This document shows, piece by piece, positions 276-37,900 of a stretch of 47,057 bases of DNA. The notes below the pieces were generated by a model. It did not search any database. It was not told where the DNA came from and saw only the letters and a list, made by a program, of their open reading frames with translations. How positions within the stretch are numbered: the stretch's first letter is position 1; each line of letters starts with the position of its first letter. A program made the translations under genes and the position numbers. Origin of the DNA: Candidatus Termititenax aidoneus (GTDB taxonomy: Bacteria; Margulisbacteria; Termititenacia; Termititenacales; Termititenacaceae); contig BGZN01000007.1 of the NCBI GenBank assembly GCA_003864455.1, forward strand, positions 1 to 47,057, given 5' to 3'.

Positions 276-890
276 ATGCGAAAATATTTTGGGGTATACC
301 TTGGGATTATCCTGCTGGCGGGATTTAGTTCAGCTACTTCGCTGTGGACTATGGATTCAAAATCACCGCTGGCCAAAGCATCTAAATTTGCGGTGGGCGA
401 TACGATCACAATAGTGATCGAGGAAAGTCTGTCCGCCGCGCAGTCCGGCACGACACGCGCTCAAAAAGGTTCGAACACTACATTCAGTCTGTCCAACAGT
501 TTACAGGACAATCAGACTCCGGCCAGCGGCCTGGCCAGCAAAAGTTCCGGCGACACGCGTTTGAACACCTTGTTCAACGGCGCCAGCAATTATACCGGCA
601 CCGGAAGCACCCAGCGCACAACTTCGCTGAAAACGACAATTACCGCGACAGTCGTGGATGTGCAGCCCAACGGTAATCTTTTTGTGCTCGGCCAGCGCTC
701 GATCCGTGTCAATGAAGAGGTGGAGACTGTCGAAGTTTCCGGCATTGTGAATGCCGCCAAGCTTTCGGACGACAACTCGATTAATTCCACGCAAATCGCC
801 AATGCCAAGATCACGATACGCGGCGCCGGCGCGGTGTCCACGACGCAGCAGCCCGGTATTTTATCCTCGATGTTTAACTGGCTGTTTTAA
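276..890 (+). CDS. flgH: Flagellar L-ring protein FlgH
   Basis: FlgH forms the L-ring that guides the flagellar rod through the outer membrane, so it implies a diderm envelope. The 204-residue protein has an N-terminal hydrophobic signal (about residues 1-20), then the FlgH core with F-A-V-G-D-T-I-T-I-V-I-E-E and the conserved N-G-N-L-F-V-L-G-Q-R region, and a C-terminal I-R-G-A-G-A-V segment. Length is close to the usual 220. The signal region ends LLAGFSSA and has no lipobox cysteine, whereas most FlgH proteins are lipoproteins, so anchoring may differ here. GGGCGGGG at 265-272 may act as ribosome-binding site. The gene is followed 14 nt later by flgI. Confidence 0.9.
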   Translation: MRKYFGVYLGIILLAGFSSATSLWTMDSKSPLAKASKFAVGDTITIVIEESLSAAQSGTTRAQKGSNTTFSLSNSLQDNQTPASGLASKSSGDTRLNTLFNGASNYTGTGSTQRTTSLKTTITATVVDVQPNGNLFVLGQRSIRVNEEVETVEVSGIVNAAKLSDDNSINSTQIANAKITIRGAGAVSTTQQPGILSSMFNWLF

Positions 891-904
891 TAAAAGGGGG
901 CGCG

Positions 905-1996
905 ATGCGGAAATATTTACTGCTGATAGTTTTGATTTGTTTGGGAGTGGCTGAGTCGCCGGCTGTGCGCATCAAAGACATTGCCACGATTTCAGGCGTG
1001 CGCTCCAATCAGCTTATGGGCGTGGGTTTGGTGGCCGGTTTGAAAGGCACGGGCGACACCGGCTCCAAAGTAACCGACAAAGCTCTGACCAATTTGCTGG
1101 TCAATATGGGCGTAACCAACCGCCAGGATTTGTATCATAGTAAAAATATCGCGGTGGTCATGGTTACCGCCGAACTGCCGGCTTTCGTGAAGCCCGGACA
1201 AAAAATCGACGTTTTTGTTTCGTCAATCGGCGACGCCACGTCTTTGCGCGACGGCAATCTGCTGATGACGCCGATCAAAGGCGCTGACGATCAGGTTTAC
1301 GCGGTGGCGCAGGGACCGATAATTTTGGGCGGACGCGGCGCCGCTAACCGCAGCGAAACAGTGTGCAAAGTCGTGGAGGGCGCTATCGTCGAGCAGTCTG
1401 TGCCCATGGAGATTGCCGGCAAGAGCAGCATCGCGCTCAATTTAAACAAATCGGATTTCAGCACGGCCACCCGGGTAGCCGAAGCGCTGGACCGCGCAGG
1501 TTATTCCGGCACGCGCGCTATAGACCCCTCGACTGTGGAGATACCTATCGAAGCGGAAGACCGCGAGGGGCTGGTGTCGTTCATCGCGCGGGTGCAGGAT
1601 TTTATGGTAGTGCCTGACGCGGTGGCCAAAGTGGTCATCAATCAGCGCACCGGCACGGTGGTCATCGGCGAAAATGTGCGTCTGTCGCCGGTGGCGATCT
1701 CGCACGGCGATGTGGAGATACATATCGAAAGCGGGAGCGAAGGCGGAGAAGAAGGGGAGGGCGAGGGTTTGGACGACGCGCTGCTGGCCATGAATCAAGC
1801 AACGGCCGGCGGCGATCAAGCCGCGCAGCAGCAGAAAGAAAAAGTTATCAAATTGGTGCAGCTGCGCGAAGGCTCTACCTTGAGCAGTTTGGTCAAAGCG
1901 CTGAACTCGGTCGGCACTTCACCGCAGGATTTGATTGCTATTTTGCAAGGGCTGAAAACCGCCGGCGCATTGGCGGCCGAAATAGAGGTTATTTAA
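905..1996 (+). CDS. flgI: Flagellar P-ring protein FlgI
   Basis: FlgI builds the periplasmic P-ring around the rod in peptidoglycan. The 363-residue product begins with a Sec signal (MRKYLLLIVLICLGVAES), followed by the hallmark I-K-D-I-A-T-I-S-G-V-R-x-N-Q-L-M-G-V-G-L-V-x-G-L-x-G-T-G-D region. It ends with the typical L-V-K-A-L-N-S-V-G-T-S-P-Q-D-L-I-A-I-L segment and A-A-E-I-E-V-I terminus, so it is complete. Around residues 275-320 there is an acidic, Gly/Glu- and Gln-rich insertion (GSEGGEEGEGEG, later QAAQQQKEK) in the place of a normally variable loop. It lies between flgH and the flgJ-like gene with 3 nt to the next start. Confidence 0.93.
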   Translation: MRKYLLLIVLICLGVAESPAVRIKDIATISGVRSNQLMGVGLVAGLKGTGDTGSKVTDKALTNLLVNMGVTNRQDLYHSKNIAVVMVTAELPAFVKPGQKIDVFVSSIGDATSLRDGNLLMTPIKGADDQVYAVAQGPIILGGRGAANRSETVCKVVEGAIVEQSVPMEIAGKSSIALNLNKSDFSTATRVAEALDRAGYSGTRAIDPSTVEIPIEAEDREGLVSFIARVQDFMVVPDAVAKVVINQRTGTVVIGENVRLSPVAISHGDVEIHIESGSEGGEEGEGEGLDDALLAMNQATAGGDQAAQQQKEKVIKLVQLREGSTLSSLVKALNSVGTSPQDLIAILQGLKTAGALAAEIEVI

Positions 1997-1999
1997 GCG

Positions 2000-2353
2000 A
2001 TGCGGAAAATTTATTTTTTGCTGCTGCTCCTGACTTTGGCGTGGGCGGCGCAGTCTGTCGTGCCGGTCAACCCAGCGGAGTTTATGAGCGACATTGTTGT
2101 CAAAGAAGGTATGCGCCGGCAGCCCACGGACAACGCCGGCCGGCAAAGCGCTTTCCGGCAAATGCTGCTGGAAGAAGTTTTTTTGCGCGATATGTTTAAC
2201 AATGAAAACAGTATTTACAAACCGGAAAAAGACGATGAAGACAGCCTGGTTTTTAGCGGTTTGTCGAGCATTTATGGAGATTACGCGCGCAAAGAACTGG
2301 CCGCTTATTTGGTCGAGCAGGGCTTTTTACAGGAAGGTTTGGAGCAGCAATGA
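2000..2353 (+). CDS. flgJ: FlgJ N-terminal-like rod-binding protein with signal peptide
   Basis: A 117-residue protein placed directly after flgI, where FlgJ normally sits. FlgJ's N-terminal domain caps the growing rod; the muramidase domain found in enterobacterial FlgJ is absent, as in many phyla. The sequence has a clear Sec-type signal (MRKIYFLLLLLTLAWAA), then a segment with F-R-Q-M-L-L-E-E-V-F-L-R-D-M-F and a late F-S-G-L-S-S-I-Y-G-D-Y-A-R-K-E-L-A-A-Y-L region resembling the rod-binding domain. Canonical FlgJ goes through the flagellar type III apparatus without a Sec signal, so this N-terminus is unusual. Its stop overlaps the fliA start as ATGA. Assignment rests on position and weak similarity. 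Confidence 0.6.
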   Translation: MRKIYFLLLLLTLAWAAQSVVPVNPAEFMSDIVVKEGMRRQPTDNAGRQSAFRQMLLEEVFLRDMFNNENSIYKPEKDDEDSLVFSGLSSIYGDYARKELAAYLVEQGFLQEGLEQQ

Positions 2354-3168
2354 CAGTTAAGCGCGTTAACCCAAATCCGCCGAAAAAATCCGCCAGGACA
2401 CTGGAAAAGAAGCCGGTGCCGGTAAATATGCACGCGCATTTGTACAAATCCGAGGAAGACCTGGAAGACAATGTGGATTTTAAAGATAAAAATTCGGTGG
2501 TTACAGCTTTTACGCCGCTGGTGCAGATCATCGCCGCCAATATCACCGCCGCGGGCAAACTGCCGCCCAATATTCATTTTGACGATCTGATAAGTTACGG
2601 CACAAGCGGCTTGATCAAAGCCTGGGAAAATTTTGACAAAACGAAAAATGTGAAATTTAAAGTGTACGCGTCTTACCGGATTCGCGGCGAGATGCTGGAC
2701 AAGATCCGCAAAGAATGGAAATACCAAAATCCGGGCGGTTACAAATCAGTCAGCCGCGTTGAGGCCAAAGTAGCGCAGGCGGCAATCGACACCAAAGGCA
2801 CGAACACCGGCGACGAGGAAGAAAACATCAAGAATATCGCGGCTAATTCATCGGTGGCTTATCTGCTGTCTTTTGAGGACACGCAGTCGGCTGGTGACAG
2901 CGTGGCGGACAACGGTTTGCAGTTGGAAGAGTCGGTAACCAGCCAAATCGATTTTGCCGAGGAAAAAAAAGCGCTCTGGGACGCGGTCAAGACTTTGGCC
3001 GAGGACGAAAAAAAAATTGTCAAAATGTTTTATATCGACGACCGCTCGCAAAAAGAAATCGCCGACGAACTGGGGTATTCCAAGAGCAAGATCAGCCGTA
3101 TTCACTCGCAGGTTTTGAGCAAGCTGCGTTTGCGCATTCAAAGGAAATTAAATTATGATTACGATTAA
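2350..3168 (+). CDS. fliA: RNA polymerase sigma factor for flagellar genes (FliA/WhiG type)
   Basis: Sigma-28-type factor that directs RNA polymerase to late flagellar promoters. The 272-residue protein shows region 2 (F-D-D-L-I-S-Y-G-T-S-G-L-I-K-A-W-E-N-F-D, then V-Y-A-S-Y-R-I-R-G-E-M-L-D), which is diagnostic for FliA/WhiG. It also has region 4 with a helix-turn-helix (Q-K-E-I-A-D-E-L-G-Y-S-K-S-K-I-S-R-I-H-S). It is slightly longer than the usual 240 because of an N-terminal lysine/proline-rich extension. It starts with ATG overlapping the flgJ-like stop, and its 3' end overlaps the flgB start by 14 nt, so the genes are translationally coupled. Confidence 0.9.
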   Translation: MTVKRVNPNPPKKSARTLEKKPVPVNMHAHLYKSEEDLEDNVDFKDKNSVVTAFTPLVQIIAANITAAGKLPPNIHFDDLISYGTSGLIKAWENFDKTKNVKFKVYASYRIRGEMLDKIRKEWKYQNPGGYKSVSRVEAKVAQAAIDTKGTNTGDEEENIKNIAANSSVAYLLSFEDTQSAGDSVADNGLQLEESVTSQIDFAEEKKALWDAVKTLAEDEKKIVKMFYIDDRSQKEIADELGYSKSKISRIHSQVLSKLRLRIQRKLNYDYD

Positions 3169-3523
3169 AAAAATTATTTTGGCCGGCTTGTTTTTGAACG
3201 CGGTCTTGCCGGCGGCGGTGGAAAATATTTTGTTTGATGATGTAACCATGCGCCTGGAAAGAGACATTCAGGAAGCGACGCGGCGGCAGGCGATCATCGC
3301 GCACAATGTGGCCAATGCCGAGGTGGAAGGTTTTAAGCCGATCCGTTTTAAAGAGGAATTAAAAGCTTTGCAGGGAAAACCCGGCGGCGTGTCGGCTGAC
3401 CGCGTGGTCGTGGAAGAAGAAATGGTTAAAATGGCCAAAAACAGGCTGCGGCATCAAACATTGTTAAAGCTCTACACGATGAAAACTTCGACGGTTAAAA
3501 CAGTTTTGAGTCAGGGCAAGTAA
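3155..3523 (+). CDS. flgB: Flagellar rod protein FlgB with an N-terminal signal peptide
   Basis: FlgB is a proximal rod subunit. The conserved core is visible: N-I-L-F-D-D, then R-R-Q-A-I-I-A-H-N-V-A-N-A-E-V-E-G-F-K, matching the family pattern RQ-x-x-I-A-x-N-I-A-N-x-x-T-P-G-Y. In front of it sit about 23 extra residues (MITIKKIILAGLFLNAVLPA) that form a classic Sec signal peptide; canonical FlgB begins directly at the L-F-D region. AAGGAAAT eight nt before the ATG supports this start, which overlaps the end of fliA. The protein (122 residues) is otherwise near normal length. The signal peptide suggests export through Sec rather than the flagellar type III channel, which would be atypical. 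Confidence 0.85.
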   Translation: MITIKKIILAGLFLNAVLPAAVENILFDDVTMRLERDIQEATRRQAIIAHNVANAEVEGFKPIRFKEELKALQGKPGGVSADRVVVEEEMVKMAKNRLRHQTLLKLYTMKTSTVKTVLSQGK

Positions 3524-3534
3524 AGGAGGTTTTT

Positions 3535-4029
3535 ATGCGAAAAATTTTTGGCGCGGCGGTTTTGATTTGGCTTAGCTGGTGTTTGGGCGCGGTGGCCGGT
3601 CTGGAAAACGCTCTGGATATTAGCGCTTCGGGGGCGATAGCGCAGCGCACGCGGGCGCAGGTGGCCGCGGAGAATATTGCCAATATAGACACGACCAAGA
3701 CTTCCGACGGACTGCCTTACCGCCGCAAAGTGGTGATCCTGCGTCCGGCGGAAAATTTCAAATCACGCAGCCGCGCCGGTCAGCCGGTGATGAACGGCGT
3801 GTCGGTGGTGTCGGTCGGGCCGGAAAAAGACGCTGAGAAAAAGTTTCGGCGCGTGTACCAGCCCAATCATCCCGATGCTGACGAAAGCGGTTTTGTGCTG
3901 TATCCTAATGTAAATATTACCGAGGAGTTGATCCAGCTTTCGGAGATCAGCGGCGCGTTTGAAAACAATGTGGTGGTTTTTAACAACACCAAAGCGATGA
4001 TGCAGGCCAGTTTGGAATTGGCGCAATAG
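3535..4029 (+). CDS. flgC: Flagellar rod protein FlgC with an N-terminal signal peptide
   Basis: FlgC is another proximal rod subunit. The FlgC core begins around residue 23: L-E-N-A-L-D-I-S-A-S-G-A-I-A-Q-R-T-R-A-Q-V-A-A-E-N-I-A-N, followed by T-T-K-T-S-D-G-L-P-Y-R-R-K. The C-terminus carries N-V-N-I-T-E-E-L-I-Q-L-S-E-I-S-G-A-F-E-N-N-V and a final A-S-L-E-L-A-Q, as expected for axial proteins. Ahead of the core lie about 22 hydrophobic residues (MRKIFGAAVLIWLSWCLGA). The start is beyond doubt because an excellent AAAGGAGG site precedes it by six nt. FlgC normally has no cleavable signal, so this is the second rod protein here with a Sec-like leader. Length is 164 versus about 135-150. Confidence 0.9.
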   Translation: MRKIFGAAVLIWLSWCLGAVAGLENALDISASGAIAQRTRAQVAAENIANIDTTKTSDGLPYRRKVVILRPAENFKSRSRAGQPVMNGVSVVSVGPEKDAEKKFRRVYQPNHPDADESGFVLYPNVNITEELIQLSEISGAFENNVVVFNNTKAMMQASLELAQ

Positions 4030-4062: not shown

Positions 4063-4377
4063 ATGGCGGAAGGAATAACAGCGGTCGGCGGTTTGAATCC
4101 GGTGCAGACCGGCGCGAATACGATAGTGTCTCCGGTTAATGTGCAAAACACTTCGCCGTTTCAAGTGATGCTGGACGCGGCGATCAGCGGTCTGCAGGAT
4201 GTGAGCGCAGCGGAGGAAAAAGCCAACGCCTACATCGCGCAGTATTCGCTGGGGCGTGTCAGCATGGAAGAGGCGCTGATCGAAGTGCAAAAAATGACTA
4301 TGGCCGTGCAAATGGCGACAACTGTGGTCAATCAAGTGGTGTCGACCTTTAAAGAAATAGAGCAGATACCGGTTTAA
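4063..4377 (+). CDS. fliE: Flagellar hook-basal body protein FliE
   Basis: FliE joins the MS-ring (FliF) to the rod. The 104-residue product matches in length and in its two helical halves: S-P-F-Q-V-M-L-D-A-A-I-S-G-L-Q-D-V near the middle, and S-M-E-E-A-L-I-E-V-Q-K-M-T-M-A-V-Q-M-A-T-T-V-V-N-Q-V at the end, the strongly conserved FliE C-terminal helix. Unlike FlgB and FlgC upstream, it has no signal peptide. AGGGAGGT seven to eight nt before the ATG is a strong ribosome-binding site. It sits between flgC and fliF as in most flagellar clusters. Confidence 0.88.
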   Translation: MAEGITAVGGLNPVQTGANTIVSPVNVQNTSPFQVMLDAAISGLQDVSAAEEKANAYIAQYSLGRVSMEEALIEVQKMTMAVQMATTVVNQVVSTFKEIEQIPV

Positions 4378-4414: not shown

Positions 4415-6133
4415 GTGGGCGAACAAATAGGCGCAGGCTCTAGGTCCGGCGGCGGTAAAACGATTTTTATTATTATAGGCGTGGTGATTATCGTCGCGCT
4501 GGCGGTTTTGTTTTTTCTCTACCGCCCATCTTTGGCCGGCGCTGTCAAGATCGGCAGCGGCTCTCTGCCGTCATTCACGCAAAAAAAAGAGCCGGCCGGC
4601 TATTCGGTGCTGTTTAAAAATCTGGACTACACAGAAGCCGCGCTGATCGTGGATTCGCTGAAAACACAGGGCGTGAAAGATTATCGGCTAGAGGATGACG
4701 GCCGTACGATATTAGTGCCGACCAAAAAACGCACGGATATAGTTTTGACCATCGCCCAAGAAGGCATTATGCCCAACGGCGGGGCGGTGGGTTTTGAGAT
4801 TTTTGACAAAGGCAGCGCGCTGGGCGCGTCGGAGTTTGACCAAAACGTGAAATTTTCCCGCGCGATCAGCGGCGAGATGGCGCGCAGCGTGGCGCGGATC
4901 AACGGCATCGAAGAAGCGCGGGTGATCGTGGTCATACCGGCCAAACAGCTTTTTTCCACAGTGCAAAATCCGGTGCAGGCTTCGGTCATGGTCAAGATCG
5001 TGGAGGGCGAGCTGCTCTCTCCGTCGCAGGTGCAGGCGATCATTGCGTTGGTTTCCGCATCGGTGGAAGGCCTGCAAAAAGAAAATATCACAGTGGTGGA
5101 TTATCACGGCCGGGTTTTGAGTTCTGAGGAGTATGCCAAAGATTATGACCGGCTAGCCGCGCTGCTGGCTATGCAAAAAGCGCAGTCCGGCGGCCGCAAT
5201 GTGTCGACGGCGGCTTTGATGGATTCTACGGAGATTCCGCTGGAGGCTTCTGAAAAGGCCGACGAAAGTTCTATTTTTGAGATGTATTACAATATCGACA
5301 ACAACAAGATGAACAGGCAGCAAAGAAGTTCGGTCAGAGGCTTGCGGCTGGATGCCAACGCCAGCGCGGAAGAGGCTTACGCGGCCAAGATGAAATTCAA
5401 GGAGCGCTACGAAAATCTGCTGGAGCGCAATGTCAAACAAATGGCCAATCAGTTTTTCCCCAAAAAAGCCACGACGGTCAAAGTCAATGTGGAACTGAAC
5501 GACCGGCCTTTTGACGCGGTAACGCCAAATTCTATGATCGCGCGGATCACCAGCATGATCCTGCTGGATCAAAACAACAAAGATGTGGTCCTGACTCCGG
5601 AAGTGCGCGAGGCTTTCATGAAATCAATTGCCGCGGCGACGAGTTATGTCAAAGGCCGCGACCGCATCGACCTGCGCTGGTCGCCAAATACTAATGAACA
5701 CAACAAAGGCAATTTATTCAGCGGTTTGAGCAGCGGTCAGGACAAAAAGACGGAAAAAACAGCTCCCAAGGTAACGCCTGTACCGCCTGCGCCGCAGACG
5801 GGCAAAGATCAGCCGGTGATAGATTTATCTAAATTGCAGTCCAAGCCGGAAGTCTTTTGGACATGGAATAATATTCTATATTTAGGCTGCGGACTTTTCG
5901 GCGTGCTGCTCTTGATCATAGTCTTGCGGCCAAGGCATGCCCGCCGAGTTACCGCGGAAAAAGGCGGCAAGAAAAGCTCGGTTTTTGACGAGCCGCCGGA
6001 AGACAAAGAAGGTTTTGCAGACCTTGCCGCTCCCTCGACAGACGCGATCCGCGAGCTGGCCGCGCAAAGCCCGGACAAAGTCGCGGCGGTTTTGGAAAAA
6101 TGGTTTCAGGAAGACGCTGCGGCGCAGAAATAA
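4415..6133 (+). CDS. fliF: Flagellar MS-ring protein FliF
   Basis: FliF forms the membrane-embedded MS-ring, the base on which the export apparatus and rod assemble. The 572-residue protein begins at a GTG with AAGAAAGG about 14 nt upstream. It has two transmembrane segments, near residues 15-35 (FIIIGVVIIVALAVLFFLY) and near residues 490-505 (LGCGLFGVLLLIIVL). Between them lies the ring-building YscJ/FliF domain (Y-S-V-L-F-K-N-L-D-Y-T-E-A, I-M-P-N-G-G-A-V-G-F-E-I-F-D, A-R-V-I-V-V-I-P). The cytoplasmic tail ends with the FliG-binding motif (A-I-R-E-L-A-A-Q-S-P-D-K-V-A-A-V-L-E-K-W-F). All expected parts are present, so an MS-ring with a FliG docking site is predicted. Confidence 0.93.
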   Translation: MGEQIGAGSRSGGGKTIFIIIGVVIIVALAVLFFLYRPSLAGAVKIGSGSLPSFTQKKEPAGYSVLFKNLDYTEAALIVDSLKTQGVKDYRLEDDGRTILVPTKKRTDIVLTIAQEGIMPNGGAVGFEIFDKGSALGASEFDQNVKFSRAISGEMARSVARINGIEEARVIVVIPAKQLFSTVQNPVQASVMVKIVEGELLSPSQVQAIIALVSASVEGLQKENITVVDYHGRVLSSEEYAKDYDRLAALLAMQKAQSGGRNVSTAALMDSTEIPLEASEKADESSIFEMYYNIDNNKMNRQQRSSVRGLRLDANASAEEAYAAKMKFKERYENLLERNVKQMANQFFPKKATTVKVNVELNDRPFDAVTPNSMIARITSMILLDQNNKDVVLTPEVREAFMKSIAAATSYVKGRDRIDLRWSPNTNEHNKGNLFSGLSSGQDKKTEKTAPKVTPVPPAPQTGKDQPVIDLSKLQSKPEVFWTWNNILYLGCGLFGVLLLIIVLRPRHARRVTAEKGGKKSSVFDEPPEDKEGFADLAAPSTDAIRELAAQSPDKVAAVLEKWFQEDAAAQK

Positions 6134-6151: not shown

Positions 6152-6640
6152 ATGGTGGCAATGCAGTTAAAGGGCCGTGAAAAAGCGCTGATTTTTCTTT
6201 CCGCGCTGGGCGATGAAGTGTCCGGCAAAGTGCTGGACTGTCTGCCGGAAAGCCTCGCGCTCAAGATCACGCGGGAATTAAATAATTTCAAAAAACCTTC
6301 GCCGGAAGCGGTGGCTTTTGTGCTGAAAGAGTTGACGCGCTTTGCGCTGAATCAGCCGCCCGAAACGCCGCGGCTCAAAGAACCGGAGGTTGATCCAGCT
6401 GACGCGGCGAGCGAGGTCGGCCGCAAGCCCCTGCCGGAATTGGCGGCTTTGCTGCAAAATGAAATACCGCAAACCGCAGCTTTTGTTTTGAGTTATATGA
6501 GCGCAGGGCGGCAGAAAGATTATTATGAAATACTTTCGCCCGGCCGCCGCAGCGATGTCAAACAATGCGCGGTCGAAAAGCTGCCTTGGTCAGACAGTTT
6601 GTTTGCTTTGCTCAATGAGCAGGTCAAGGCGCGGGGGTAA
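6152..6640 (+). CDS. fliG: Short FliG-like switch protein lacking the C-terminal torque domain
   Basis: Placed between fliF and fliH, exactly where fliG belongs, but only 162 residues versus about 330. The N-terminal domain is recognisable (K-G-R-E-K-A-L-I-F-L-S-A-L-G-D-E-V, residues about 8-24), as is the start of the middle domain: L-P-E-L-A-A-L-L-Q-N-E-I-P-Q-T-A-A-F-V-L-S-Y, where the FliM-binding EHPQ motif reads EIPQ. The frame stops (TAA 6638-6640) at the end of the middle domain. The charged C-terminal domain that contacts MotA is not found in the next frames, because fliH begins nine nt later. A GAGGAG site supports the start. Either the motor part is encoded elsewhere, or this basal body does not rotate. 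Confidence 0.75.
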   Translation: MVAMQLKGREKALIFLSALGDEVSGKVLDCLPESLALKITRELNNFKKPSPEAVAFVLKELTRFALNQPPETPRLKEPEVDPADAASEVGRKPLPELAALLQNEIPQTAAFVLSYMSAGRQKDYYEILSPGRRSDVKQCAVEKLPWSDSLFALLNEQVKARG

Positions 6641-6648
6641 AAGTTTAT

Positions 6649-7656
6649 ATGCCGCTGCTAAAAAAACATACTCTGCGTCTGGGCGAGCAGCTCGTGCACA
6701 TGGGTTTGCCTGAGCCTGACGGCGCGGAATCAAGCGAGGAGGAATCCTTTAACAGCACGCCGAATGTTTCGCCGGTCGAGATGTTGTATACCGAACCGGT
6801 CGAGCCGGCTGAGCCTTTGGTCAGCGAAGCAGAGCGCGAACAACTGATCCAGAATATTTTGCAGGAAGGCAAAGCGCAGGCAGACGCGGCGGCGGCGGAG
6901 ATTAAACAAAAAGCCGAGGAAGAAGCGCGGCAGATTATTGACGCCGCGGAGCACAAAGCCAGAGAGTTGCTGGAAAAAGAAATTGCCAAAGGCGTGGAAG
7001 AAGGCCGGCAAAAGATTTATGAACAGCTCAAAGGGCATATCGCCGAAGCGCAAAATGTGCTGAGGCAGGCCAACGCGCAAAAAAACACGATTATCAAATC
7101 CGCAGTGCCGGAAGTTATGAAGCTGTCTACGCGCATTGCCGCACAGGTTGTCCGCAATGAGCTGGCGCAAAGCCAGGATATTGTGATGGATATAGTCAAG
7201 GACGCTATCGAAAAAATCTCTGACAACGAGCAGGTGGTTATCAAAGTGGCGGCGCAGGATTTGCAGACCGTGCGCAATGAAAAAGATTTGATTATCGATC
7301 TGGTCGAAGCCAAAAATTTGAGTATTGTGCCCGACAAACATTGCGCGGAAGGCGGCTGCCTGATCGAGACCAAACTGGGCTTTATTGACGCCAAAGTGGT
7401 TACCAAACTGGACATGATCCAGACCGCGCTGCTGGGTGTTTATCAAGAGGAAAAAGTTAAGCGCGAAACGGCTTTAAAAGAAGCGGTGGAGCGCGGCGAA
7501 GAGGTCGATCTGGCCGCCGAGGAACAAAAAGACATCGAAGAACTGATGCAGGTAACTTCGCTGGAAGAGATCCGCGAGCAGGAAAAGAAAATGCTGGAAG
7601 AGCAGCAGGAAAAAGCCAAGGCGGAAGGCGGCGTGGAAGGAGCGCCGGAGTTGTAG
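6649..7656 (+). CDS. fliH: Flagellar export regulator FliH (V-ATPase E-like) with a long acidic tail
   Basis: FliH forms the peripheral stalk of the flagellar export ATPase and holds FliI. The 335-residue sequence has a charged, alanine-rich coiled coil (about residues 65-150), then the FliH/V-ATPase-E globular domain (A-A-Q-V-V-R-N-E-L-A, V-V-I-K-V-A-A-Q-D-L, G-G-C-L-I-E-T-K-L-G-F-I-D-A-K-V). The last pair of motifs is typical of FliH and HrpE. After the domain comes an unusual tail of about 75 residues, rich in Glu, Lys and Gln, which is not part of standard FliH. The next gene is fliI, two nt downstream. Confidence 0.8.
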   Translation: MPLLKKHTLRLGEQLVHMGLPEPDGAESSEEESFNSTPNVSPVEMLYTEPVEPAEPLVSEAEREQLIQNILQEGKAQADAAAAEIKQKAEEEARQIIDAAEHKARELLEKEIAKGVEEGRQKIYEQLKGHIAEAQNVLRQANAQKNTIIKSAVPEVMKLSTRIAAQVVRNELAQSQDIVMDIVKDAIEKISDNEQVVIKVAAQDLQTVRNEKDLIIDLVEAKNLSIVPDKHCAEGGCLIETKLGFIDAKVVTKLDMIQTALLGVYQEEKVKRETALKEAVERGEEVDLAAEEQKDIEELMQVTSLEEIREQEKKMLEEQQEKAKAEGGVEGAPEL

Positions 7657-7658
7657 TT

Positions 7659-8975
7659 ATGGTCGTCAAAGATTTAACCAAATATTTGCAGGCAATCGAC
7701 AACACCGAGCATGTTAAAGTGATTGGCAAAGTTTTGCAGGCGGTCGGCTTGGTGATCGAAGCACAGGTTACCGGTGTGGCCAATGGCGAACTGTGCACGA
7801 TTTTTCTGGAAGGTGAAGATCCGCATCCGGTTTATGCGGAAGTTACCGGCTTCAAAGGCGACAATGTGCTGCTGATGCCGCTGGGACTGACCACCGGTAT
7901 TGCGCCGGGCTGCAAAATCGTGCCGACCGGCCACCCTTTGCGCGTCGGCGTGGGCAATCAGTTGCTGGGACGCGTGTTGGACGGCTTGGGACGGCCGATG
8001 GACGGCAAAGGCGCGATTGTAACGGACACCTTTTATCCGTTTGACCGCGATCCGCCGGACGCGACCAAACGGCCGCGCATCAAAAATCATTTGGCAACCA
8101 GCGTCAAAGCTTTTGACGGCTTGTTGACGCTCGGACAGGGGCAGCGCATCGGCATTTTTGCCGGCTCTGGCGTGGGCAAATCGACCCTGATGGGCATGCT
8201 GGCGCGCGGCACTGAGGCGGAAGTCAACGTGATCGCGTTGGTCGGCGAGCGCGGACGTGAAGTGCGCGATTTTATCGAGGAGTCGCTGGGCGAAGAAGGC
8301 TTGCGCAAATCCGTGGTGGTCTGCGCGACATCGGATCAGCCGCCGATGATCCGTTTGAAAGGCGCGATGGCCGGCACCGCTATTGCCGAATATTTCCGCG
8401 ATCAGGGCAAAAAAGTTTTGTTTATGATGGACTCTGTAACGCGCTTTGCCATGGCGCAGCGTGAGATTGGCCTGGCTGTCGGCGAACCGCCCACCACCAA
8501 AGGCTACACGCCTTCGGTTTTTGCGATGATCCCGCGCTTGATGGAACGCGCCGGCACTTCGGAAAAAGGCTCGATTACGGCGATTTACACTGTGCTGGTG
8601 GACGGCGGCGATATGGATGAGCCAATCGCGGACACAGCGCGCGGTGTGCTGGACGGCCACGTGATTCTTTCGCGCGACTTGGCCGCCAAAAATCATTATC
8701 CCTGCATTGAGGTCGGCCCGAGTGTCAGCCGTCTGATGTCGGAAATCTGCACGCCGGAGCACAAGGCCGCCGCCGGCAAACTGCGCGAGGTGCTGGCGCG
8801 CTACACTGAGGCCGAAGACCTCATCAATATCGGCGCTTACGTCAAAGGCAGCAATCCAAAAATCGACAATGCCATTGAAAAAATAGACGCGGTGAATGAA
8901 TTTTTGTGCCAGGCCACCGATGAGAAATTTGATTTTGACGAAACAGTGGCGCGGCTGGAAAATATTTTTGCGTAA
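7659..8975 (+). CDS. fliI: Flagellum-specific export ATPase FliI
   Basis: Hexameric ATPase related to the F1 beta subunit that powers unloading of flagellar type III substrates. The 438-residue protein carries the P-loop G-I-F-A-G-S-G-V-G-K-S-T-L-M (about residues 165-178), the G-E-R-G-R-E-V-R-D-F segment, the Walker B region with L-F-M-M-D-S-V-T-R-F-A-M-A-Q-R-E-I-G, and the family signature P-P-T-T-K-G-Y-T-P-S-V-F. The length and all catalytic features are intact, so the export ATPase should be functional even though the motor protein FliG is short. It overlaps the normal cluster order fliH-fliI-fliJ. Confidence 0.95.
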   Translation: MVVKDLTKYLQAIDNTEHVKVIGKVLQAVGLVIEAQVTGVANGELCTIFLEGEDPHPVYAEVTGFKGDNVLLMPLGLTTGIAPGCKIVPTGHPLRVGVGNQLLGRVLDGLGRPMDGKGAIVTDTFYPFDRDPPDATKRPRIKNHLATSVKAFDGLLTLGQGQRIGIFAGSGVGKSTLMGMLARGTEAEVNVIALVGERGREVRDFIEESLGEEGLRKSVVVCATSDQPPMIRLKGAMAGTAIAEYFRDQGKKVLFMMDSVTRFAMAQREIGLAVGEPPTTKGYTPSVFAMIPRLMERAGTSEKGSITAIYTVLVDGGDMDEPIADTARGVLDGHVILSRDLAAKNHYPCIEVGPSVSRLMSEICTPEHKAAAGKLREVLARYTEAEDLINIGAYVKGSNPKIDNAIEKIDAVNEFLCQATDEKFDFDETVARLENIFA

Positions 8976-8994: not shown

Positions 8995-9498
8995 ATGAAA
9001 AAGCCGAAAAAATCTAAAAAATTCCAGTACAATCTCAAAACAGTTTTAAAAGTCCGCGAGATTTACGAGAAACTGGAAAAAGAAAAATTTGCCGAAGCCC
9101 AGCGCAAATATCTGGAGGAGCTGGAGCGCGAAAGAAAAATGAAAGATTATGAAATGCAGCAGCAGCGCACACTGAAAGGCGGCTTGCAGGGCAATCTTGA
9201 TTTTGCCAGCATTATGCACCGCCAGAATTTTCTCAAGAAATACAAGATCGATGTAAATGAGCAGGAAAATAAAACCAAAGAAGCCGACCAGCGCAAAGAG
9301 GAGCAACGCGAGCGTCTGGTGAAATCCATGAAAGACCGCAAGATTTTGGAAAAAGACCGCGAGCATAAAAAACAAGCCTGGAAGCGCTTAATGGACCGCG
9401 AGGCGACCAAATTTTTGGACGAAATTTCCACTTCTAAATATTTCCGCAATATGGAGGAACGGCTCAAAGAGGAGCGCCTGCGGGCGGGGCTGCGGTAA
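8995..9498 (+). CDS. fliJ: Flagellar export protein FliJ
   Basis: FliJ is the coiled-coil central stalk of the export ATPase and a chaperone escort. This 167-residue protein is almost entirely helical, Lys/Glu-rich and cysteine-free. It has F-Q-Y-N-L-K-T-V-L-K-V-R-E near the start, matching the FliJ pattern F-x-(F/Y)-x-L-x-x-V-L-x-x-R-E. A strong GGGGGGAG site lies just before the ATG. It is the last gene of the flagellar run; the next gene is on the other strand six nt away, and I see no clear terminator between them. Confidence 0.82.
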   Translation: MKKPKKSKKFQYNLKTVLKVREIYEKLEKEKFAEAQRKYLEELERERKMKDYEMQQQRTLKGGLQGNLDFASIMHRQNFLKKYKIDVNEQENKTKEADQRKEEQRERLVKSMKDRKILEKDREHKKQAWKRLMDREATKFLDEISTSKYFRNMEERLKEERLRAGLR

Positions 9499-10253: not shown

Positions 10254-12257
10254 ATGGCACGCTACACATATAAATTACCGGACGGGGAGACAGCGGCGGG
10301 CGCAACACCGACGACTAACACGGTTCTAGCTGTAAAACAAAATTATTTGTCTGGCAAAGAAGCCTATGCAGCGGATTACAATCAGACAGTGGAGAATCTC
10401 AAAAAAGAGCGGACAAAACGCGGCATCTCAGCTGATGCAGGTTTGTCTGCGGTTACGGCCAAAGCGTCCAAAATAGAGGCCAGCCAGATCAAAGCTTTGC
10501 AAGAAGCGACCAGAGGTTTGGTGGCCTATAACAGCAATGATATTTTTTCATATAGCACAATAGGTATCGGCACGAGGCTTTTAGCCAAACATTTAGAAGA
10601 AGTGCGGCAGGTGGTGGACGACGCGCTGAACAGCGCAAGATGCGGCATCACATGTTCATCGGACTGCGCGCGCAGCTGCGGGACGGGCTGCGCTACCGCG
10701 GCCTGCATCGGGCAATGCGGAGACACTTGCGGAGGCGGGTGCAGCTCGGCTTGCAGCCGGGGCTGCGGTAATGATTGTACGGGGCATTGCGGGACGACAT
10801 GCAGCGGCGGCTGCGGCGAGGCCACTTGCACAGGTTCTTGCGGCGCGGATTGCGCTAACGGCTGCGGCGCGTCAGCCTGTGAGAGCGCTTGCGGCGGAAA
10901 TTGTGAGGGAGGCTGCGGTACGGCTAGCTGTATAGGTGTTTGCGGCAACGCTTGTGAAGGCGGCTGTGGCAGCGGCTGCGAAGGCACTTGTGGTACTGTT
11001 TGTTCCGGTGGTGGTTGTGGCAATAATGCTTGCACCGGTACTTGTGGCGGAAGTTGTGAAGGAGGCTGCGGTGGCAACTGCACGGCTACTTGTGGCGGTG
11101 GTTGTGATAACGACTGTGGGGATGGCTGTAAAGGCGGTTGCAGTCTTGTGTGTGTTGCTGGGTGTGGCAATACATGCAGTGTTGGTTGTGCTAGTTGTAC
11201 TGGCGGATGCAGCACAGCCTGTACTGGTACTTGTGCTAGTGATTGTAATGTTTCTTGCGGAAGTGATTGTGGAGATAATTGTAGTACAAACGGATTTAGT
11301 GGTTCGAATTGTTCCAACTGTGCTTGGAATTGTATTGAAAACTGTGCTAATGGTTGTGGAACTGGCTATTGTAAAGGTGGCTGTCATTCAAATTGTGGAA
11401 GTGATAGTTGTTCTAAGGCGTGTGGTAGCAGCTGCGGTGGAAATTGTGCCAAGGTTTGCAGTGGGTCAAAATGTAATGGTGTCTGCGGTGCTTGTGGGAA
11501 TGCCTGTTATGCTAATTGTACAAGCTCTTGTGGTAGTTCTTGCGGTGGTGGTAGCTGTAAAGCAATTTGTCAAAGCACTTGTGGTGATAGTTGCGGTAAC
11601 GGCTGTGTAGAAGCTTGCAAAAAAGTCTGCGGCGGCTGCACTACATCCTGCGGTGGTAGTTGTAGTAATGGTTGTCAGAATACTACTTGTAAAAATGGTT
11701 GTTATGCTGGTTGCAATAACGGTTGTTCTAGTGATACTTGCAAAGATGGTTGTTATACCGGCTGCAACAATGGTTGTTCTGCTGAAGCATGTAGAAGTGG
11801 CTGTGCCAGCGGCTGCGGCGGAGGCTGTTCCGCTACTGCTTGTGAAAATGGCTGTACCAACGGCTGCGGAGGCGGTTGTTCGGCTACAACCTGCCAGGGT
11901 GGTTGTTACACTGGCTGCAACAACGGCTGCAGCAGTGATTCCTGTGTGAGTGGCTGCCGCGGAGAATGTACCGGCGTTTGTGGCAATGCCGCCTGTGAAA
12001 ACGATTGTCATAGCGCTTGCCATATAGTGTGCAGCGCTGACTGCACTACCGGCTGCGCTTCCAGCTGCAAGGACGGTTGCGGCGAAACCTGCAAGGATGT
12101 TTGTATCAATAATTGTTCCAATTCCTGTATGGCCGGTTGTCTAGATGGCTGCGCGCAGACCAGCCGTTACGGGACAGACCCCGCCGGCACAAATGACCCG
12201 CGTCCGGTTACAGGGAGTTTTAGCGGCAAATTTTCCTATGGATATGGCGAGGGGTAA
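10254..12257 (+). CDS. Giant cysteine-rich CXXX-repeat protein, likely radical SAM target
   Basis: A 667-residue protein with three parts. Residues 1-129 are a cysteine-free, charged N-terminal region that could be a leader; no signal peptide is seen. Residues 130-633 contain 122 cysteines by my count, almost all spaced C-x3-C, with seventeen C-x4-C steps, four C-x2-C steps and one ten-residue break near residue 350. A 34-residue Cys-free tail ends in a Gly/Tyr/Ser-rich stretch (SGKFSYGYGEG). Fillers are mostly Gly, Ser, Ala, Asn and Thr. CXXX-repeat targets of radical SAM maturases are a known class, and a matching maturase lies downstream, which supports that reading. A metal-binding or disulfide-linked structural protein is the alternative. 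The gene sits behind a promoter and palindrome, and its stop is four nt before the next gene. Confidence 0.8.
   Translation: MARYTYKLPDGETAAGATPTTNTVLAVKQNYLSGKEAYAADYNQTVENLKKERTKRGISADAGLSAVTAKASKIEASQIKALQEATRGLVAYNSNDIFSYSTIGIGTRLLAKHLEEVRQVVDDALNSARCGITCSSDCARSCGTGCATAACIGQCGDTCGGGCSSACSRGCGNDCTGHCGTTCSGGCGEATCTGSCGADCANGCGASACESACGGNCEGGCGTASCIGVCGNACEGGCGSGCEGTCGTVCSGGGCGNNACTGTCGGSCEGGCGGNCTATCGGGCDNDCGDGCKGGCSLVCVAGCGNTCSVGCASCTGGCSTACTGTCASDCNVSCGSDCGDNCSTNGFSGSNCSNCAWNCIENCANGCGTGYCKGGCHSNCGSDSCSKACGSSCGGNCAKVCSGSKCNGVCGACGNACYANCTSSCGSSCGGGSCKAICQSTCGDSCGNGCVEACKKVCGGCTTSCGGSCSNGCQNTTCKNGCYAGCNNGCSSDTCKDGCYTGCNNGCSAEACRSGCASGCGGGCSATACENGCTNGCGGGCSATTCQGGCYTGCNNGCSSDSCVSGCRGECTGVCGNAACENDCHSACHIVCSADCTTGCASSCKDGCGETCKDVCINNCSNSCMAGCLDGCAQTSRYGTDPAGTNDPRPVTGSFSGKFSYGYGEG
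11674..11943 (+). repeat. Tandem 51-bp repeats (17-residue units) within the cysteine-rich gene
   Basis: Here the protein settles into a regular higher-order unit of 17 residues with cysteine spacing 3-3-3-4. Successive units read CKNGCYAGCNNGCSSDT, CKDGCYTGCNNGCSAEA, CRSGCASGCGGGCSATA, CENGCTNGCGGGCSATT and CQGGCYTGCNNGCSSDS. At DNA level these are 51-bp repeats that have diverged mostly at third positions. The unit is visible but looser elsewhere in the gene. Confidence 0.8.
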
Positions 12258-34452: not shown

Positions 34453-34914
34453 ATGAAAAAAACAGTTTTGTTCGGGATATTGCTGGGCGCGTTGCTGGCG
34501 GCGGAATTTTCCGCGGAAGCGGTTACTACTATAGAAAGTCCGCTGCTTGGCCGTCAGACGCTCACGCAAAACATCACGGAATGGCCGCGGCCGGAAAAGA
34601 TTTATCAGGACAAACTATTCACGGAATTTAATTTACAGACCGCCGAAACTCCGGCCGGATTGCAAATGACCGGCGCGCCGAAAGATCCGGACTCAAGTTT
34701 TTCCCGTCTGTTTATTCAGCTAGACCAGAATAAAAACCTTAGCGAATTGCGTCTTTACAACCGGGCGGAGCAAGAAGTGCTTTCGCTTAAAAATACTTAC
34801 GAGGAGCGGGACGGCGTTTTCCTGCCGGCGCGCGCCGAAGTGTTTTTAAGCGAGAGCAAACTCCGCGCCGTTACCGAATACCGCAATGTTCAATTCAATG
34901 GAGAAATAAAATGA
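34453..34914 (+). CDS. Secreted LolA-like protein upstream of the giant esterase gene
   Basis: A 153-residue exported protein starting at ATG 34453 with GGAGGAG upstream (an in-frame start at 34393 lies before the predicted transcription start and is not used). Signal peptide: MKKTVLFGILLGALLAAEFS. The mature part (F-N-L-Q-T-A-E-T-P-A-G-L-Q-M-T, later D-P-D-S-S-F-S-R-L-F-I-Q-L-D and E-V-F-L-S-E-S-K-L-R-A-V-T-E-Y-R-N-V-Q-F-N) resembles the half-barrel of LolA/LolB-type lipoprotein carriers, particularly at its C-terminus. The similarity is partial and the protein is short. Its stop overlaps the start of the giant gene (ATGA), so the two are translated together, and it may help deliver that product. 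Confidence 0.55.
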   Translation: MKKTVLFGILLGALLAAEFSAEAVTTIESPLLGRQTLTQNITEWPRPEKIYQDKLFTEFNLQTAETPAGLQMTGAPKDPDSSFSRLFIQLDQNKNLSELRLYNRAEQEVLSLKNTYEERDGVFLPARAEVFLSESKLRAVTEYRNVQFNGEIK

Positions 34915-37900
34915 AAAAAATATTTTTTCTTCTATTATTGTGCTGCGGACTAAGCGCCCGGCTGTCGGCGGAAATCCAGCCGGTAACTTTGCGCGGTTTG
35001 CCGGAGCACATGCGTTCTTACAAAAATTATCTTGTGGTTTTTGTGCATGGCATGGGCAGCGACGCCGAGGCCTGGACGGAATTAAAAGAGCGCCTGCCGG
35101 AATTAGTCGGTGATCCGGATTTTGCCGGACATCTATACGCCTATACTCTCGCCAATCCAAACGCCGCGTATTACGGCAACGCCGCCGAGTTGAAGAACTG
35201 GCTGGCCGCCGCCCGCCAAGAATTTATTGCCGCGCATCCGGATTGGCCGCTGGACAAAATCCCGAGCAAATTTATTCTGCTGACGCACAGTATGGGCGCG
35301 CTGTCCGCGCGGTCGTATATTTATTCCGAGGCGCTGGCGGCCGCGCGCGTCAACCCCAAAGCTTTTCCGCGCGGTTTTTATCAGGATGATGTGCAAAAAG
35401 CGGTTTTTCTCGCGCCGCCGCATCGTGGGTCGAGCATGGCGGATTTTATTTTTCATTATATGCTTTCCGACGAGGGTTATTACATCGGCGCTGCCGGCAT
35501 TTTGCGTCAGGCTTGGGATGTCTACCGGCAGTTGTCGCCGGTTTTGGATACGCTGGAAAAACTCGAAAAAGACGGCGTGAGTTTAAATTTTGATTTGCTG
35601 CCGGACTTGCGGAGATTCAGGGATGATTTTTACCGGATTTTTGAGGAATTTGAATTTAGTTTACAACTGACCGACGGAAATAAGTATTTGGCCTCTCTGC
35701 GCGATTTGCAAAATAAATTCACGCAGTTGGCCGCGCTGTACAATCCGCTCAATCGTTTATATCAAGTGTTTCTGGAATTGGATTCCGCGCCGCTGCTGGC
35801 TTTTCCGACGCTGAAAACTCTGGTGGAAGCCAATAATTATCTTGCCTCTGATTTAATTAAAGAACTGCTGGACACATTGCTTGAACAGCTTTTTTTGAAA
35901 CAGCAGATAGAGGAAGGCGCGGTGCGTTCTTTGTTAAGCCACAGTCCGGTAACGGCGGTTTTGAATAGAGCGTCTTTGCCGCCGGATCATGATCCGGTGC
36001 TGTACCGCAATATTATTCCGCGCGGGCTGGTCGCTTTTGACCGGCGGCACACGCAAGATTTTAATCAATCCTTTTACGGCAATTTGCCCGCGCTGCTCGG
36101 CTTTGCTAAAGAAACCGCTGATTTCACGCCGAATAATTTTATTTCCGGTCTGGCTGCTAACGCTTATCAGATTAAGCTGCTGTCCTCGCCGGAGTATCGG
36201 CGGCTGCCCTCGGGCGAAGCGCGTTTGCTGGCTTTGCTGATGAGTTACACGCGCGGCCTTTTTACTGTGGAAGGCGACGGCGCGGTGGACATAGACAGTC
36301 TGCGCGGCAAAGATATTCCCGGTCTGGCCGCCGCTAAAAATTATTACAAGAATTTTGCGCATGCTGATCTGTCTGATTATTTTGACCGGGGATTTTTGGA
36401 AGACACTGTCGAGGCTGAAGCTGCCTGCGTGGTGGTCGAGTTGGCTTTGAATGCGTTCGGCGGTACTACGCCCAAAGGTGTGCGCGGCGCGATCCGCGCC
36501 GCGCCGTTTTTCAATTTCATTTCTGTGGTCGCGCGGCGTCAGGAAGATCTGGCGCAGGATTTTTTCGCGCACAATAATATTTTGCAGCCGCAAAATTCCC
36601 TGCCGCTGATCGAGCAGTCTTTATATGACGCGCCGCTGCTGGTCTTGCAAAATATTTACACTGTATCCGGTGATGAGCAAATCGAACTGGCGGCTGACGC
36701 TTTGCAGGAACAAACCGCCGTTGAGCAGACTAATACCACTTTACCGCTGCGCCGCGGCGCCAAAACTTTTTATCTGCCGCTGGCCTACAATGTCAAAGCT
36801 CCGCAGGTGCGCTTGTCCGCCGAGCTTTACGATCTTGCGCCGCATCTGGCCAGTCTGGAATATTCTTTCAATTTCGCGCCGTACACTGCCGCTCCGGTCG
36901 ACAAATGGGGCGCGGTTGCTTTGCCGGATTTTTCCGTGGCGGAAGGTCAGAATATTATCGCTTTCCGCGCGGTCAACCGCGTCGGCCAGACTACAGAACA
37001 GTTTTTGCGTATCATTCGTTCCAGCACACCGCTGCTGGCTTCGGAGATTTCTCCCGAGCCTTTTGCCGCGGTCAATACCGGCAATTTGACGCTCAGCCTC
37101 ATTTTGTACAACGCGCAATTTGTGACTAACAATCTCGGCGTTTCCAGTATCGACGAAATAATTCTGGACGGGGAAAAATTGCGCTCTGATCAATATGTTT
37201 TGTCCCGCGGCTCTAATCACGCTTACCGCAATTATCTTAAACTGGACGCGCCGCTGACTTTAGGTGAAGGCCGGCATACGGTTTCACTTCAAGCGCATGA
37301 TACCTATGGCCACCACAATTCCACGCATTGGTTTTTTACCGTGGATACTACGCCGCCGGAGATAAATATAGAAGAGCTTTTACCAGCTGCGGCCGGACGA
37401 ATGCTAACCATTAATTACACGATCTCCGACAATTCAGCCGTCTTGAGCGATTTGCAAATAAATTTGCGCGATGCGGAGGAGGTTTTGAGCAGTAAAAATT
37501 ATGCGCTGGCCAGCGCTGGCCTGCAGCAGGAATTATTTGCGGTCGGCGACTGGCCGGACGGCGCGTATATTTTGGATATTGGCGCGGCGGATCAGGCCGG
37601 CAATCGCACTGTGCGTCAGGCGGCGGTTATTGTCGACAATCAGCCGCCGCAGATTTCCTGCCAAAAAAATGCCGCTGAATTTATTTTAACGTCCAGCGAG
37701 AAAATATCCGGCCAGGTCATTCTCGCGCACGAGCAGCTGCGCGTCCCGCTGCCGTTAAGTCTGGTTACGGAAAATATTTACGCCGCAAATTTTTCCGGAT
37801 TGCCGGACGGCGTTTATGCCGCGCGCGCCGAAATCAGCGATCTGGCCGGCAACGCGGTTGATTTGACTATGGACGATTTGCGCCTAGACACGCGCGGTCT

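Follow-up and report, generated by a model that had tools for sequence, protein, structure and literature searches.

In a clade that makes up about half of the phylum Margulisiibacteriota, the flagellar proximal-rod protein FlgC carries an N-terminal signal peptide, joined by FlgB and FlgF in most of the clade and by FlgJ in part of it; the signal-bearing FlgC have lost the motif that targets early subunits to the type III export gate, and the machine to which they belong lacks genes for the filament, the stator and the torque domain of FliG. Taken as a whole, we consider it quite likely that these are working Sec signals delivering rod subunits to the periplasm, that FliE, FlgG and the hook would be exported by the type III route, and that the product is a filament-less, probably non-rotating secretion apparatus. 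Flagellar axial proteins are as a rule taken to travel through the flagellum's own channel. If the above is true, the rule is broken for exactly the proximal rod, so that the base of the rod can be built from outside, and 'needs the channel' could be told apart from 'needs the partner'.

The window, that is, the whole stretch of 47,057 nucleotides analysed here, is contig C7 of a 2.26 Mb genome (G000) that is 93% complete. Its flgI is 88–91% identical to those of two termite-gut Margulisiibacteriota genomes and 60% identical to that of Candidatus Termititenax persephonae. The left end of the window has the gene order flgA (end)-flgH-flgI-flgJ-fliA-flgB-flgC-fliE-fliF-fliG-fliH-fliI-fliJ, and the features are listed in Table 1. 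Contig C94 has flgG-flgA at one of its ends and probably joins the left end of the window. Contig C1 carries fliK, a FlgD-like gene, a flgE-like gene, fliM, fliN, a fliO-like gene, fliP, fliQ and fliR, the FlgD-like and FliO-like labels being given by position only. Profile matches identified FliP, FliQ, FliR, FliH, FliI and FliJ of the export apparatus in G000; FlhA is missing from this assembly and is full-length in G001, G002 and G005. The rest of the type III export apparatus is conserved across the signal-bearing clade (SP clade), the operon is syntenic across families, and flgB always lies directly upstream of flgC.

Table 1. Flagellar genes and predicted signal peptides at the left end of the window.
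Feature	Position	Strand	Evidence
flgA, 3' end (remainder on contig C94)	2..199	+	HMM 7e-19
flgH, L-ring protein, expected signal peptide present	276..890	+	PF02107 3.7e-45
flgI, P-ring protein, expected signal peptide present	905..1996	+	PF02119 1.6e-107
flgJ-like, rod-cap protein, signal-like start at about residues 1–16/17	2000..2353	+	PF10135 matches of syntenic relatives
fliA-type sigma factor	2350..3168	+	NF005413 8.4e-37
FlgB predicted signal peptide, codons 1–21 (putative cleavage site)	3155..3217	+	
flgB, proximal rod	3155..3523	+	TIGR01396 1.6e-10 (below cut-off); PDB fold matches
FlgC predicted signal peptide, codons 1–21, predicted site AVA/G	3535..3597	+	
flgC, proximal rod	3535..4029	+	TIGR01395 125.8 bits; fold match 7cg0
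fliE, rod base, without signal peptide	4063..4377	+	PF02049 4.7e-10; hydropathy
fliF, MS ring	4415..6133	+	PF01514 7.3e-53
fliG, 162 aa, without C-terminal torque domain	6152..6640	+	N and middle domain matches only
fliH	6649..7656	+	PF02108 7e-15
fliI, export ATPase	7659..8975	+	HMM 5e-248
fliJ	8995..9498	+	PF02050 7.2e-9

Three large proteins were also seen in these contigs. Downstream of fliJ, a 667-aa protein (window 10254-12257, +) gave zero Pfam matches; it may be secreted by the machine or act as its partner. An open frame of 3187 aa (window 34911-44474, +) has a weak FlgD-like match (4e-5), which might reflect an Ig-like domain for sorting or adhesion in a giant surface protein. Directly upstream of fliK on contig C1, a 1305-aa protein (L006:9289-13206, −) has a signal-like start and, judged by eye, S-layer-homology-like repeats.

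The signal-like starts read MRKIFGAAVLIWLSWCLGAVA followed by GLENALDIS in FlgC, MITIKKIILAGLFLNAVLPAA followed by VENILF in FlgB and MRKIYFLLLLLTLAWAAQSVVPVNP in the FlgJ-like protein. They have the features of Sec and signal peptidase I substrates (a basic n-region, a hydrophobic core and small residues at −3 and −1), and they resemble the signals of FlgH and FlgI from the same operons. FlgC scored 125.8 bits against TIGR01395 (cut-off 102.1), matching model positions 2–137 of 137 from its residue 25 onwards. In an alignment with a solved FlgC (12du_W), its residue 22 falls opposite residue 2 of that protein, so that the extra piece is 21 residues long and cleavage after A21 (AVA/G) would leave the canonical protein minus its Met. 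The predicted fold matched the Salmonella proximal rod (7cg0_p) with an E-value of 4.4e-11 and a TM-score of 0.89 on the target, and mature FlgC keeps the full rod fold, both D0 helices included. FlgB reached 41.3 bits against TIGR01396, under the cut-off of 59.05, and its identity therefore rests on its fold, on gene order and on PF00460, which scored over its own cut-off; its ten best PDB matches are all proximal-rod or rod-export-gate entries, with E-values from 2.1e-3 to 7e-2, weaker than those of FlgC. The FlgJ-like protein itself gave zero matches to PF10135 (Rod-binding), a domain matched by 4 of 11 syntenic relatives (best 7.9e-5). No signal-like start was present in FliE, FlgG or the FlgE-like protein of G000, according to their N-termini and hydropathy. 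The initial annotation had thus correctly described extensions on FlgB (about 23 residues), FlgC (about 22, here refined to 21) and the FlgJ-like protein, and their absence from FliE. It had also credited FlgB and FlgC with a strong ribosome-binding site, a description that suits FlgC best (a 9-base AAAGGAGGT match upstream); the site of FlgB is moderate (AAAGGA), and that of FlgJ is weaker (GAGGTT, far upstream).

A signal-peptidase site that leaves 25–28 residues before the core motif was found in 21 of 22 sequences (2000 shuffles gave a mean of 9.5 and a maximum of 18), and in signal-less FlgC the distance from Met to the core motif is 26 residues, except for one protein with 32. Among four Termititenax genomes, pN/pS was 0.40 and 0.26 in the signals of FlgC and FlgB, respectively, and 0.08 and 0.06 in their mature parts; substitutions in the signals are constrained yet looser than in the mature parts, as expected for signal peptides. 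It must be noted that the hydropathy scan also flags FliG of the sister clade (about 2.0–2.2), its score alone being non-specific, and for this reason the argument draws jointly on where the segments lie, on their recurrence, on the cleavage site and on the loss of the motif. A wrong start codon was rejected because different families share the frame, the start and the position of cleavage, and because the ribosome-binding site of FlgC fits; a single-genome artefact or contamination was rejected given that the extension is present in five more genomes of the family. In window FlgC no acceptable lipobox was seen (Trp precedes Cys), and a twin arginine of the Tat type was not seen by eye. A second, signal-less FlgB or FlgC was not found elsewhere in G000.

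The structure is not a flagellum for motility: flagellin, FliD, a recognisable MotA and the torque domain of FliG are missing. Flagellin (PF00669) is absent from G000 and from all 8 family members, MotA_N was not found in G000, and window FliG has no FliG_C match. Eight genomes (G008, G010, G013, G015, G018, G021, G023 and G026) have two FlgC copies and two or more FlhA matches each, and only these have flagellin, or FliD above the cut-off. Their flagellar FlgC copies that were read, those of G008 and G010 included, have no signal, while the second copies read (7 of 8) have one. The two flagella that were read have a FliG of 333–339 aa, against mostly 150–230 aa in system 2; MotA_N scored over the cut-off only in 4 of the 8 flagellated genomes and in G025. 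Given the second FlgC copies, the pattern of flagellin, FliD and MotA, and the short FliG, we regard system 2 as a second, flagellin-less and probably motor-less machine. G025, where the MotA_N match lies at C41:23077-23337, has neither flagellin nor a FlgC match. The FliG of L130 (G043), at 362 aa, is unlike the truncated form elsewhere in system 2, which could stem from a fusion or a wrongly set start. The sister clade (L101, L115-L129 and L134; families f3, f5, f8, f11, f14, f17 and f21) has the same flagellin-less operon and truncated FliG, and no Sec signals on the rod. In this phylum, a flagellar machine without a filament seems to be the usual case.

Of the 55 genomes of the phylum, 51 yielded a FlgC. 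Every system-2 FlgC read in the SP clade (families f1, f2, f4, f6, f7, f9, f10, f12, f13, f15, f16, f18, f19 and f20) has a signal-like start, with a basic end, a hydrophobic core and a small-residue end in all sequences examined; that of G032 (f15) is longer and less typical. None of the 17 FlgC of the sister clade has a signal. Chance does not account for a pattern shared by all related FlgC of one clade. In the tree of four operon proteins, which was built without f13 and f20 (no fliF), the SP clade forms one branch, separated from the sister clade with a FastTree support of 1.000. Outside the phylum, no signal was seen in Marinobacter or in a set of roughly 25 FlgC drawn from an unrelated phylum and other groups; Planctomycetota, the one outside phylum sampled in number, gave zero signal-bearing FlgC among the loci read.

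The other signals are less evenly spread, and they are confined to FlgB, FlgC, FlgF and FlgJ, never appearing on FliE or true FlgG. Among the SP-clade families, f1, f6, f9, f10, f12, f13, f16, f18 and f19 have the signal on FlgB, and f2, f4, f7 and f20 lack it. FlgF, where present, has one in f4, f9, f10, f13, f16, f18 and f20 and, from the open frames read, probably also in f6, f12 and f19. FlgJ has one in some members of the clade only; even in the Termititenax family it is present in G000, G005 and Pcl387 and absent from G002 (T. persephonae) and G007 (MSGIVPVNPAEFM vs MRKIYFLLLLLTLAWAAQSVVPVNPAEFM), a patchiness that looks like recent graft or loss. Homologues in relatives, to which the initial annotation had pointed as a check, thus have the signals in the case of FlgB and FlgC and give a mixed result for FlgJ. 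Its further question about other axial proteins is answered positively by FlgF in relatives and negatively by FlgG and the FlgE-like protein. The lineages would form an evolutionary series of changes in export route: no signals, FlgC only, FlgC and FlgF, FlgB and FlgC, and these plus FlgJ. Directly upstream of flgF, most system-2 loci have a short FlhB-like reading frame (L086:3469, L095:3111, L101:3660 and others), perhaps a stand-alone C-terminal domain of FlhB.

The gate recognition motif, which we take to read FxxxPhi, separates the two kinds of FlgC across the phylum: it follows the PYRR segment in all 17 signal-less proteins and in none of the 19 that bear a signal. Early flagellar subunits dock at FlhB via a gate recognition motif (PMC8983047, PMC10936197). 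In Salmonella, F45 of FlgB is essential for type III export, and the Phe of FlgC (F49) is dispensable for secretion (PMC9307174). All 22 signal-less FlgB retain the F45-equivalent, as against 6 of the 14 with a signal, Termititenax being among the six; the window has no FxxxPhi in FlgC and retains the F45-equivalent (F65) in FlgB. The association of motif and signal gave Fisher p-values of 1e-10 for FlgC and 1e-4 for FlgB, relatedness being ignored, and the loss in FlgC may be one event inherited by the whole SP clade. FxxxPhi is present in the signal-less FlgG of all testable members of both clades, and most signal-bearing FlgF are without the FPLEL motif found in signal-less FlgF. From this distribution, the proteins that gained a Sec signal are those that lost, or are losing, type III targeting; judged by the motifs, the loss is complete for FlgC and incomplete for FlgB. 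As a separate observation, FliE is enlarged (about 160–250 aa vs about 105) in f6, f9, f10, f12, f13, f18 and f19 (L092, L093, L095, L097, L102-L105, L130, L132 and L133), and several of these families are also without the F45-equivalent of FlgB.

The segments could also be uncleaved membrane anchors, inserted by Sec and tethering FlgB and FlgC to the inner membrane, perhaps in a collar close to the MS ring, so that a free rod would no longer be formed. The length of their hydrophobic cores would fit this, and in some of them, for instance the FlgC of G012, the c-region offers either several good sites or none where cleavage is expected; nevertheless, the signal-peptidase site falls at the canonical N-terminus in 21 of 22, the mature FlgC retains both D0 helices within a full rod fold, and the packing of rod helices is expected to need a free canonical N-terminus. 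For these reasons we regard an anchor as unlikely. Early rod and hook subunits do require a hydrophobic N-terminal signal (PMC8983047), and with the remaining export apparatus conserved in the SP clade, the segment might be an enlarged version of this gate-opening signal, export still being of type III. Such a signal, however, works jointly with the gate recognition motif, which is missing from the signal-bearing FlgC; moreover, FliE and FlgG gained no such segments, and those observed resemble the signals of FlgH and FlgI. We give this reading very little credence.

It could further be argued that the machine, having lost its filament, is in decay and that the extensions are neutral by-products or mis-called starts, since the flagellin-less genomes are also without FliD and, with one exception, MotA above the cut-offs, and FliG is truncated. 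The conservation of the system speaks against decay: purifying selection on the mature proteins is strong (pN/pS 0.06–0.08) and the signals are moderately constrained, the operon remains syntenic across families, frame, start and cleavage position are preserved over deep divergence, and zero frameshifts or stop codons were seen in the signals. Decay is thus highly improbable.

Returning to Sec delivery, the most likely course of assembly can be outlined. FliE would seat on the export gate through type III export, while FlgB, FlgC, FlgF where present and, in some lineages, FlgJ would be secreted into the periplasm via Sec and cut back there by signal peptidase I, so as to expose the canonical mature N-terminus. 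FlgB, FlgC and FlgF would then enter the mouth of the MS ring from the periplasm and assemble onto FliE, for which they would need access to the FliE base through the top of the ring, and FlgJ would cap the rod after them. FlgG and the hook parts would then pass via the channel, with FlgD, the FlgE-like protein and FliK also using the type III gate. The early place of FliE and the use of the channel by FlgG are suggested by motif retention. The initial annotation had proposed that the proximal rod is built from the periplasm after Sec export, in a different assembly order. Comparison supports the export route well (clade-wide signals, their position exactly at the canonical N-terminus, loss of the gate motif that is complete in FlgC and under way in FlgB), while the changed order goes beyond the evidence. 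It seems to us rather more probable than otherwise that, in a large clade of Margulisiibacteriota, the proximal rod and rod cap are made of Sec-delivered periplasmic subunits, that the type III gate serves only FliE, the distal rod and the hook, and that axial proteins switched route one by one (FlgC, then FlgB and FlgF, then FlgJ). Termititenax attaches to spirochaetes in the termite gut, and this attachment is a possible context for secretion by the machine.

Like the basal body of Salmonella and E. coli, the system has the same genes for rod, rings, export ATPase and gate, in an order that can be recognised, and its FlgC agrees in fold with the proximal rod of Salmonella. In that basal body, type III export serves all of the early substrates, FlgB, FlgC, FlgD, FlgE, FlgF, FlgG, FliE, FlgJ and FliK (PMC10936197), whereas here FlgB, FlgC, FlgF and FlgJ have Sec signals, and the filament, the stator and the torque domain of FliG are missing. 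Sec-delivered periplasmic flagellar parts are represented in the same operon by FlgI, FlgH and FlgA, with the same type of signal; FlgI and FlgH, however, form rings around the rod, outside the export channel, and are not axial subunits. Buchnera, a proteobacterial endosymbiont, has retained the hook-basal body without flagellin. We know of no Sec signals on its rod proteins. In contrast to that case, the Margulisiibacteriota system spans most of a phylum, one related to Cyanobacteria, and is an apparently undescribed flagellin-less machine; flagella are unmentioned in the paper on Margulisbacteria and Saganbacteria genomes (PMC6349859). Non-flagellar type III systems (injectisomes and the Myxococcus type) are likewise flagellum-related secretion machines without filament or motor. 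In these systems flgB, flgC and fliE have no counterparts (Abby and Rocha, PMC3459982), while all three are present in the window, and the machine described here retains the rod, the P ring and the L ring.
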